Of a stretch of DNA of 64,000 bases, positions 58,214 through 60,886 are shown in pieces. The DNA comes from Chitiniphilus purpureus (GTDB lineage: Bacteria; Pseudomonadota; Gammaproteobacteria; Burkholderiales; Chitinibacteraceae). The translations under genes and the position numbers were made by a program. The notes beneath the pieces were generated by a model. That model was given only the letters and a program-made list of their open reading frames with translations. It searched no databases and had not been told where the DNA came from. The stretch covers positions 2,999,501 to 3,063,500 of the forward strand of contig NZ_CP106753.1 in assembly GCF_025642115.1 (NCBI RefSeq). Reading direction: 5' to 3'. How positions within the stretch are numbered: position 1 is the stretch's first letter; the number at the start of each line of letters is the position of its first letter.

Positions 58214-60886
58214 TTACCAGGCGATCCTAGCGTCGTCGATCACCTTGACCAGTTGTTCATAGATGAACTGGTGGTCCTTCTGCGAGGGATGCCAGCCGCA
58301 TGCCATCGCATCCGGTGTCGTCATCTCGAAATAGCGTACCCGGGCATCCCCCTCGGCCTGCGCTTGGGCCACGATCTCCTTGACCATCGGGATGAAATCC
58401 GGCCCCTGCCACAACGGGGTGGCACTCAGCACCAGCAGTGTCTGCGGCCCATATTGCGCGCGCAGCTTGGCGATGAATGCCCGGTATGCCACCTTGAACT
58501 GCTGCCGCCGGGTTTCGTCGTTCCAGGCTTCACCCTGCCGCAACGGGGTCGAGAAGTCATTGGTACCCAGGTGCATCACCACCGCCTGCGGCTGCCAGCC
58601 CGGAGGGCGGGCCCAGCTGTCGCCATCCACATTGAGCAAGGCGCGGTCGTAGTAGGTGCGGTAGTCGGTGCCGACGAGCTTGCCGTCGTAGTTACGGATC
58701 AGGCCCAGGCCCGAGTAGCCGTTGATCTGCACATCGGCGCCGTAGTGCTTGCCCAGCAATGCGCCAAAGCTGCGGCCGGCGTCGCTGGCATCGAACACCT
58801 CGGCGTCGGAGCAGTTGTCGCGCCTGGTGCTGCGGATGGCATAGCCGTTGACGTACGAATCGCCGATCACCTCGATCTGCCGCGCCGGTGCCGCCGGCGG
58901 CGGCAGCAGCTTGCCCCCCTCCCCGGCGACAAACCCCAGGAACCGGCCGACGTCCCAGGTCAGCTCGGTGCGCCGGAGCACGCGGATGGTGTGCTCGCCC
59001 TCGGGCAGGTTGTCGACCCAGACCGTCTTCGCCCCCGGCTTGATCACATCGGCCACCTCATTGCCATCGACCAGCACGGTGAAGTGGTTGCGGGCGTCAT
59101 CGAACCGGATACCGATCCGGGTACCGCTGAAACGGCCTTCGAAGTACACGCCGGGCCAGCCGTGGCGCACGCCGTCCTTGTCCAGCGTGACCTTGCCCAC
59201 GCTGCGCACGAATGCCATCGGTCCTTCGCCGGCCGGCGTCAGCTGGGCATCGATCACGTTGAGCAGATCCTGATCGCGATCGGTGGTGATTTCCCAGATC
59301 ATCGCGCCCGCCAGCTTCTTTTCCTTGAGCAGCGCCACCTTGTGCGCAATCGAGGTGGGATCCTCGTAGCTGATGAACGCACCCTGCGCCTTGTTGTACA
59401 GATAGGGCATCCTGGCACTGCCCGACCAGAAGCGCTCGAAGCCGTTCTTGCCGATCAGCCTGGCCTTCAGGTCCTGGTAGTCCAGCACACCCTCGGTATC
59501 GCCCGACCAGGTGCCCGGGCCCATGCCGGTGCAAGTGGTGTACAGGCCATTGTCGGTTTCCGGGCAGCCGACCCAGATATGGCCGGGGAACTCGAAGCCC
59601 ATCACCAGCCTTTCCGGTGCCACGCCCAGATCGAGATAGGTCTTGATCGAATTGGCGATATTGAACGTCTGGGTCACCGGCGCCCTGGGGTCGGGATACA
59701 GCGGTGCGAGATGACCGGTGGTCAGGCTCCAGGCGCCGGCATATTCGTAGGTCATCACGTTGAGCCAGTCGGCAAAGCGCAGCACCTGGTTCCAGTCGAT
59801 CTTCGGCAGGTTATGCGGGTTCACCTCGGTGGCCAGCGTGACCAGATACGGCTTGCCATCCGGCGCCAGGCCGGCGGCATCCAGCCGCTCGCGCACCGCC
59901 TGGAACAGCAGCGGGAAGTTGGCAGCATCCTCGGGGCGCTTGATGTTGTGCGGGTGACCGTAGCCGGTGGGGAATTCCCAGTCGATGTCCACGCCGTCGA
60001 AACCATGGCGCTTGACGAAGTCGACCACGCTGTCGGCAAAGCGCCGACGGCTCTCAGGGGTCAGCGCCACATCGGAGAAATCCTTGGACCAGGTGGCCCC
60101 ACCGACCGAGATCAAAGTACGCAGATGCGGATACTTGGCCTTGAGCGCATTCAGTTCGGCGAAATTGGGCGGGTCGGCATAGGTATCGCCCAGCGCCACC
60201 TTGCCATCGACAATGTTGGCGAAGGCGTAGTTGATATGCGTGAGCTTCTCGGCCGGAATGCGCGACGGCGGGTAATCGCGGTACTTGGCCCACGATACGT
60301 AGTACGCGACCTTCTTGTACTGGACTGGGGTCGGCGTGGGTGTCGGTGTCGGTGTCGGTGTCGGTGTCGGCGTGGGTGTCGGTGTCGGCGTGGGGGTGGG
60401 TACGGTGCTCAGCAATAGCCACGGTCCCCAGGCATTGGCACCGGGCTGCTCGCCCTGCGTCCACCAGCGTGCCTCATACTGCTGACCGGCATAGCTGACG
60501 CGCTGGCCTTTGACATAGACCGTGGCCTTGTTCCAGGCCGTCACCGGTTCTCCCAGCGGCGTCGGGGTGACTGGCGTCGGCGTCGGCAACGGTGTGGGCG
60601 TCACAGCCGGCGTGGGAGTGAGCGTGGGCGTCGGTGCGACGGTGGGTGTCGGCGCCGCTGTGCCGACGAGGCGCCACAGGGTTGGCGAAGCGGCAGGGTT
60701 CCAGCCCGTGCCTGCGTAGGCGGTATGCGTCAGCAGCGCTGCATAATCCTGCCCGAGGTACTGCACCACGGTGCCGGCCTGATAGACCGTGCCTTCCTGC
60801 CAGGACGCAGCGTGCAGGCCGGCACCGAACAGCAATCCGGCGGTCAACGCCGCGACTTTCGACAATCGCGTTTGTCGTATTGGCAT
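58214..60886 (-). CDS. multidomain secreted chitinase: CBM5/12 x2, GH18, CE2-type acetylesterase
   Basis: A secreted 890-residue enzyme (signal peptide cut near LHAAS, residue 27). Order: CBM5/12 at 27-75; Pro-Thr linker (78-112); CBM5/12 at 116-161 with YEARWWTQGEQPGANAWGPW; a second (PT)n linker (163-187); GH18 catalytic domain (about 190-550) with the DxxDxDxE motif as DGVDIDWE (Asp297, Asp300, Asp302, Glu304), preceded by SVGG; then a C-terminal half (about 555-890) resembling carbohydrate esterase family 2. It has a jelly-roll-like part (WPGVYFEGRFSGTRIGIRFDD) and an SGNH hydrolase part with GDS (Ser677), GTND (Asn776) and His866 in GWHPSQKDHQ. It should hydrolyse chitin and remove acetyl groups. 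Confidence 0.92.
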   Translation of the reverse strand: MPIRQTRLSKVAALTAGLLFGAGLHAASWQEGTVYQAGTVVQYLGQDYAALLTHTAYAGTGWNPAASPTLWRLVGTAAPTPTVAPTPTLTPTPAVTPTPLPTPTPVTPTPLGEPVTAWNKATVYVKGQRVSYAGQQYEARWWTQGEQPGANAWGPWLLLSTVPTPTPTPTPTPTPTPTPTPTPTPTPVQYKKVAYYVSWAKYRDYPPSRIPAEKLTHINYAFANIVDGKVALGDTYADPPNFAELNALKAKYPHLRTLISVGGATWSKDFSDVALTPESRRRFADSVVDFVKRHGFDGVDIDWEFPTGYGHPHNIKRPEDAANFPLLFQAVRERLDAAGLAPDGKPYLVTLATEVNPHNLPKIDWNQVLRFADWLNVMTYEYAGAWSLTTGHLAPLYPDPRAPVTQTFNIANSIKTYLDLGVAPERLVMGFEFPGHIWVGCPETDNGLYTTCTGMGPGTWSGDTEGVLDYQDLKARLIGKNGFERFWSGSARMPYLYNKAQGAFISYEDPTSIAHKVALLKEKKLAGAMIWEITTDRDQDLLNVIDAQLTPAGEGPMAFVRSVGKVTLDKDGVRHGWPGVYFEGRFSGTRIGIRFDDARNHFTVLVDGNEVADVIKPGAKTVWVDNLPEGEHTIRVLRRTELTWDVGRFLGFVAGEGGKLLPPPAAPARQIEVIGDSYVNGYAIRSTRRDNCSDAEVFDASDAGRSFGALLGKHYGADVQINGYSGLGLIRNYDGKLVGTDYRTYYDRALLNVDGDSWARPPGWQPQAVVMHLGTNDFSTPLRQGEAWNDETRRQQFKVAYRAFIAKLRAQYGPQTLLVLSATPLWQGPDFIPMVKEIVAQAQAEGDARVRYFEMTTPDAMACGWHPSQKDHQFIYEQLVKVIDDARIAW
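60326..60400 (-). repeat. in-frame hexanucleotide repeat encoding the (Pro-Thr)n linker
   Basis: About 12 copies of a CCG/ACC-type hexamer (reverse complement of GGTGTC/GGCGTG variants) encode the linker between the second CBM and the GH18 domain. Length change by slippage would stay in frame and alter only linker length. Confidence 0.9.

Follow-up and report, generated by a model that had tools for sequence, protein, structure and literature searches.

We analysed a 64,000-nucleotide stretch of Chitiniphilus purpureus DNA (hereafter the window; contig NZ_CP106753.1), in which one gene encodes a family 18 glycoside hydrolase (GH18) joined to a family 2 carbohydrate esterase (CE2). The fusion open reading frame (ORF) occupies positions 58214-60886 of the reverse strand, starts with ATG and encodes 890 aa. 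A GGAG, read by eye, ends 9 bases upstream of the ATG, and promoter and terminator scans gave matches no better than in shuffled sequence. Combining the ORF list, Pfam and the translation gave the order signal peptide, family 5/12 carbohydrate-binding module (CBM5/12), linker, CBM5/12, Pro-Thr linker, GH18, CE2_N and SGNH hydrolase. A 721-aa ORF on the opposite strand (58253-60418) overlaps the fusion's domains and was taken as a shadow ORF.

All features of the fusion lie on the reverse strand. A probable signal peptide (residues 1-26, 60809-60886) was read by eye from the translation. The first CBM5/12 (residues 29-71, 60674-60802) is the best stretch matched by PF02839; a second stretch marks the other module (residues ~117-162, 60401-60538), whose limits were set by eye and which resembles the CBM modules of relatives. 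Tandem Repeats Finder detected a Pro-Thr repeat linker of tandem 6-base and 18-base units (60330-60401) between this module and the GH18 catalytic domain (residues 193-536, 59279-60310; PF00704, 274.1 bits). The CE2 N-terminal beta-sandwich follows (CE2_N, residues 564-664, 58895-59197; PF17996, 81.2 bits), then an SGNH hydrolase domain (residues 671-878, 58253-58876), identified by PF00657 (Lipase_GDSL, 46.8 bits) and PF13472 and by a structure model with fold search. CBM_5_12 reached 79.3 bits in all over its two stretches, and CBM_5_12, Glyco_hydro_18, CE2_N and Lipase_GDSL all exceeded their curated cut-offs. No CE4 (PF01522) or CE14 domain was matched in the protein in a Pfam scan at E 0.1. 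The original prediction, which had described two CBM5/12 modules, a complete GH18 and a CE2-type half in a single polypeptide, is thereby borne out.

The C-terminal half agreed with CE2 at the level of structure as well. Its predicted model aligned to solved CE2 structures over 313-321 residues, which indicates a CE2 fold. A GH18-CE2 two-domain model (706 aa) had a predicted template modelling score of 0.58, and prediction was poor over model residues 543-561. The AxeC2 model (NCBIfam NF042969) scored 110.2 bits, under its curated cut-off of 500; the fusion CE2 thus appears related to AxeC2 but outside that equivalog. Motif reading and alignment located the catalytic Ser S677 in GDS (58856-58858), the oxyanion Asn N776 in GTND (58559-58561) and the catalytic His H866 in C863-G-W865-H (58289-58291), each, like E304 of the GH18 domain, at the position originally claimed. 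With the second oxyanion residue, G726, the catalytic set is complete, and the Ser, Asn, Gly, Cys, Trp and His of the CE2 site are all intact. The site matches the dyad variant of CE2, with a Trp before the His and no triad Asp (compare PMC2661963). The cleft aromatics Y733 and W865 are also kept.

In C. shinanonensis, a CE2 paralogue (L030, G014:C24:20317-23622) close to an intact CE2 gene (L024) was found without the catalytic Ser (now Ala), Trp and His. It is likely, judging by these residues, a dead or binding-only CE2.

The nearest solved relatives of the fusion GH18 are 5gzu, 6kst and 1itx, which we take to be ChiA1-type chitinases, the first presumably ChiW. The general GH18 motifs are present: DGVDIDWE at 297-304 (DxxDxDxE), ending in the acid/base E304 (59975-59977), SVGG at 260-263 (SxGG), the catalytic Y380 and the Trp in GAMIWE. 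By alignment, the catalytic Tyr, which in GH18 is normally followed by Asp (or Asn), is followed in the fusion by Glu (E381 in MTYE, 59744-59746). The GH18 motif Y214D/N215 (ChiB numbering) has D or N at this place, and it is the Glu and Tyr that are stressed as crucial (PMC8802321); E381 was therefore considered a variant and not an exclusion from GH18. In human chitotriosidase the corresponding Asp hydrogen-bonds an alcohol hydroxyl of the -1 sugar (PMC12502790). A literature search on the -1 subsite in ChiB numbering gave no result. The hydroxyl bonded by the chitotriosidase Asp is, we assume, O6.

Nineteen GH18 domains of Chitinibacteraceae were found, and 18 were aligned. The one left out (L163, G008:C7:23015-23692) is interrupted by a TGA stop, which may reflect gene decay or a sequencing error. 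Following the catalytic Tyr, 13 domains had D, three had Q and two had E, the latter being both GH18-CE2 fusions. The Gln forms (MAYQ/MSYQ) are L154 (G016, genus of Chitinolyticbacter albus), L155 (G007) and L167 (Andreprevotia), two of which have, by eye, a CBM5/12 before the domain. In the GH18 tree the two fusions are sisters (98/97), and the group uniting them with the three Gln forms has a long branch (length 0.87; 100/100). When a GH18 model of this subclade was run against 369 genomes of the class, only the C. purpureus genome passed E 1e-80.

CE2_N was detected in 23 of 43 Chitinibacteraceae genomes, in 31 genes, 30 of which have intact active-site residues. Two are fused to GH18 (in C. 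purpureus and Andreprevotia) and nine carry one or two CBM5/12 modules without GH18, so that CE2 is joined to CBM5/12 in 11 of the 31, GH18 and CBM5/12 being the modules searched for. Neither was found in the other 20, one of which (L029) begins at a contig end.

Further fusions were sought in overlapping genome samples (43 of the family, 399 of the order and 398 of the phylum) and on the contigs of the best 80 of 183 relatives, by title 70 Actinomycetota and 10 Chitinibacteraceae. The 99 loci from the order sample and the contig scan were checked by BLAST with the fusion GH18, two of them (L085, L113) being cut at the 5' end; places in the phylum sample were judged by open-frame length only. 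There, the fusion's own frame measured 898 aa and L144 763 aa, and every other frame at most 564 aa. No additional GH18-CE2 fusion was recovered from the order genomes by BLAST, from the phylum genomes by frame length or from the best 80 relatives. The combination is real and rare.

Several long frames were considered as fusions and rejected. Pfam found only CE2 parts in actinobacterial frames of 905, 875 and 740 aa, so that such long frames are probably read-through of GC-rich DNA. Neither a 720-aa C. shinanonensis frame (L024/L057) nor the 763-aa L144 gave a GH18 or CBM hit by BLAST. GH18 was absent from all 10 long actinobacterial CE2 frames scanned with Pfam; CBM_2 was present in one and a ricin-B lectin in one. 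In Actinoplanes aureus (L111, frame 3056-5014), a PF01522 polysaccharide deacetylase is joined to CE2, which is another double-deacetylase architecture.

The host genome is a single contig of 4.19 Mb with a large chitinase set (22 GH18 matches with an E of at most 0.001, 21 of them above the cut-off), and the fusion holds its only CE2_N copy. The next gene downstream, 86 bases from the fusion on the same strand (57207-58127), encodes a 306-aa protein in which Pfam recognised two CBM5/12 modules; only CBM5/12 families were assigned, the N- and C-terminal ends having none. It is possibly co-transcribed with the fusion, has matches in 17 of the 43 family genomes, C. purpureus included, at E 1e-20, and may belong with the chitin-induced CBM5/12 proteins of A. 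ripae that have no known catalysis (PMC8802321). Beyond it, neighbourhood comparison identified a phasin gene (56568-57137, forward strand) and PhaR, the polyhydroxybutyrate accumulation regulator (55697-56431, reverse strand), a flank common to CE2 loci of sister species. Genes for a single-stranded DNA-binding protein and a major facilitator superfamily transporter lie upstream of the fusion.

The place flanked by phasin and PhaR holds, in the same orientation, a CBM-CBM-CE2 gene in C. eburneus and C. shinanonensis and a CE2 gene without CBM in Chitinolyticbacter albus. This location (55697-57137 in the window; L185, L186, L187) thus carries CE2 genes in two genera, and the fusion CE2 is not nearest to them. 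It would be a fixed site with changing CE2 occupants.

The two fusions are 72% identical in GH18 and 61% in CE2. In the CE2 tree, both fall with three unfused Chitiniphilus CE2 genes in a six-row clade (99/98; one gene is present twice), which adjoins the CBM5/12-CE2 genes of Chitinilyticum. Descent of the fusion from the co-located CBM-CBM-CE2 gene was considered and rejected: constraining the fusion CE2 to group with the genes found at that place gave p-AU 2.7e-6, for a group defined after the tree was seen. A resident CE2 gene was therefore replaced, or paralogues were sorted. The two fusion CE2 domains as an exclusive pair were absent from the best tree and were not rejected (p 0.38). The best fit would be one fusion event, after which the gene spread, was lost or was replaced.

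What might such a protein do? We favour, with moderate confidence, a secreted two-enzyme protein in which a chitin-held GH18 is combined with a CE2 O-acetyl esterase acting on chitin-associated glycans. The two CBM5/12 modules would hold the secreted protein on chitin while the GH18 domain would cleave beta-1,4-linked N-acetylglucosamine (GlcNAc) chains. Using the Ser677-His866 dyad and an acetyl-enzyme intermediate, CE2 would take off ester-bound (O-linked) acetyl, with O-6 of hexose-type sugars as the likeliest position, from glycans that accompany chitinous material or form part of it, and would thereby open up what had been blocked. Candidate targets would be an O-acetylated fungal wall or capsule polysaccharide, such as the capsule mannans of basidiomycetes, or an O-acetylated GlcNAc polymer. 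Secretion, catalysis by both domains, ester over amide chemistry and the O-6 preference are what we infer.

The CE2 enzymes described in PMC2661963 act as acetyl esterases, releasing acetate from aryl acetates, glucomannan and xylan, and PMC4311478, citing Topakas 2010, describes the family as 6-O-deacetylases. Chitin deacetylases are known from CE4 and CE14 (PMC8802321; for CE4 also PMC6282417). Ester deacetylation on glycans in chitinous matter is therefore the likeliest chemistry, and the acetate removed is probably not chitin's own acetyl group. A chitin setting for CE2 is suggested by the 11 of 31 family genes with CBM5/12 and by induction in two organisms. One secreted CE2 of A. ripae increases on alpha-chitin (PMC8802321); this is not the fusion, since it is listed among carbohydrate-active enzymes without obvious chitinolytic activity. 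In a Jeongeupia transcriptome, a CBM5+CE2 protein is up (PMC10455584, Table A2).

Several observations weigh against this reading. Only two genomes in the samples searched carry the fusion, and activity data for any CE2 of its clade were not found. Two near-invariant positions are changed in the CE2 domain, T679V (55 of 56 comparison rows have Thr) and F673V, and it also has G772H (Gly in 46 of 56); neither fusion is among these rows, nor is the dead paralogue L030, and one gene appears in them twice. These departures may merely reflect a faster-evolving protein, because the end branch of the C. purpureus fusion is longer than that of the Andreprevotia fusion in both trees (0.45 versus 0.27 for CE2, 0.32 versus 0.18 for GH18). 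E381 is atypical, and ordinary chitinase activity of the GH18 domain is therefore not certain. Finally, the Andreprevotia orthologue has one CBM5/12, and of the four secreted single-CBM5/12 chitinases of A. ripae, among which we infer it to be, none was detected in secretomes (PMC8802321, Table 1). Both points make a general role on pure chitin less likely.

The best surviving alternative, which we nevertheless consider unlikely, is that CE2 is an ordinary hemicellulose (glucomannan or xylan) acetyl esterase and that its link to GH18 reflects mixed plant, fungal and arthropod litter. The CE2 substrates in PMC2661963 are of plant type, and the nearest enzyme, CjCE2B, prefers glucomannan over xylan; the CBM_2 and ricin-B lectin modules of actinobacterial relatives point the same way. 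However, the recurrence of CBM5/12 on family CE2 genes, the GH18-rich genome of C. purpureus and the chitin induction of CE2 relatives (PMC8802321, PMC10455584) favour a chitin setting.

It is more doubtful that CE2 mainly or only binds glycans, with little catalysis. CtCE2 does bind cellooligosaccharides across its active centre (PMC2661963), the fusion retains Y733 and W865 while having lost T679, and L030 illustrates a CE2 without Ser, Trp and His. Against this, the active site of the fusion is intact, the third platform residue of CtCE2, Trp746, is not conserved among CE2 members, and the Cellvibrio CE2 enzymes bound no cellohexaose (PMC2661963).

The original prediction had CE2 removing the N-acetyl groups of chitin or of released oligomers, to give chitosan-type products. 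This claim gained no support and seems to us very improbable. Fusion to GH18 and the CBM5/12 modules on family CE2 genes would suit it, and the cited CE2 literature reports no chitin test ruling N-deacetylation out; chitin is not mentioned in PMC2661963, which neither supports nor excludes it. However, known CE2 activity is on esters (PMC4311478, PMC2661963), chitin deacetylases belong to CE4 and CE14 (PMC8802321, PMC6282417), and the genome already has six matches to the polysaccharide deacetylase family PF01522. Moreover, it gave no match to GH46 chitosanase (GH75, GH80 and GH8 were not searched for). That two separate genes were joined into this ORF by an error of annotation or assembly can practically be dismissed, given a stop-free frame in a one-contig genome and a second genus with GH18-CE2 in one frame.

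A narrower form of the favoured O-acetyl esterase reading, which we offer as speculation, is that the two domains are matched to one substrate, a GlcNAc polymer carrying O-acetyl groups, probably at O-6. CE2 would strip the O-acetyls, and a GH18 whose -1 subsite Asp is replaced by Glu in the two fusions and by Gln in three unfused relatives might fit the substituted or just-unmasked chain. If so, these bacteria would truly feed on O-acetylated chitin or a chitin-like wall polymer. When a glycoside hydrolase is fused to an esterase, this hints at the decorations by which a polymer is blocked in nature. A chitinase joined to an O-acetyl esterase, in a family with CBM5/12 on 11 of 31 CE2 genes, suggests that ester acetate genuinely stands in the way in chitin-rich material. 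Ester-linked acetate has no place in the usual picture of chitin degradation (GH18, GH19, GH20, lytic polysaccharide monooxygenases and CE4), and the fusion provides a concrete protein with which to seek the O-acetylated substrate.

The closest known counterpart is the fusion of Andreprevotia sp. IGB-42 (A. ripae; NZ_WXTX01000017, L008 and L053), which likewise combines CBM5/12, GH18 and CE2_N/SGNH in one ORF and has the same Glu in its MTYE motif. It differs in having one CBM5/12 instead of two, and no phasin or PhaR was found in the surrounding DNA, where the contig ends 3.1 kb downstream. No characterisation of it was found in the open-licence literature. The legend to a 2021 figure of putative chitin-active enzymes of A. 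ripae explains CE2_N and SGNH_hydro without comment (PMC8802321). Of the three CE2 genes in that genome, only L008/L053 has GH18; the architecture was therefore already recorded in 2021. Section 12 of that paper does not mention a GH18-CE2 fusion, and the words CE2, esterase and GDSL are all absent from PMC10404844 (Jeongeupia genomes). A 2016 survey lists GDSL-type esterase domains among multi-domain bacterial cellulases, xylanases and chitinases, with partners unspecified (PMC4928363). Thus the original view that GH18-CE2 is not well described holds for function, no functional description being among the matches listed in the open-licence literature, but a domain legend exists.

Among solved structures, CjCE2B of Cellvibrio japonicus (PDB 2w9x) is the closest CE2 by sequence and fold and shares the C-x-W-H signature; unlike the fusion, it stands alone without a second enzyme (PMC2661963). 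The GH18 chitinases 5gzu, 6kst and 1itx, best solved relatives of the other half, have no CE2, and in the alignments with 5gzu and 6kst an Asp follows the catalytic Tyr where the fusion has Glu. The nine CBM5/12-CE2 proteins of Chitiniphilus, Chitinilyticum, Andreprevotia, Jeongeupia and the genus of Chitinolyticbacter albus lie near the fusion CE2 in the tree but have no GH18. CtCel5C-CE2 of Clostridium thermocellum (PDB 2wao) does join a glycoside hydrolase to CE2, but its partner is a cellulase (GH5 by its name) and it binds cellulose through the CE2 cleft (PMC2661963). Altogether, the architecture had been recorded but not discussed, and the pairing of a glycoside hydrolase with CE2 as such is known from CtCel5C-CE2; the unexpected part is that the GH18 paired with CE2 here has an altered -1 subsite.
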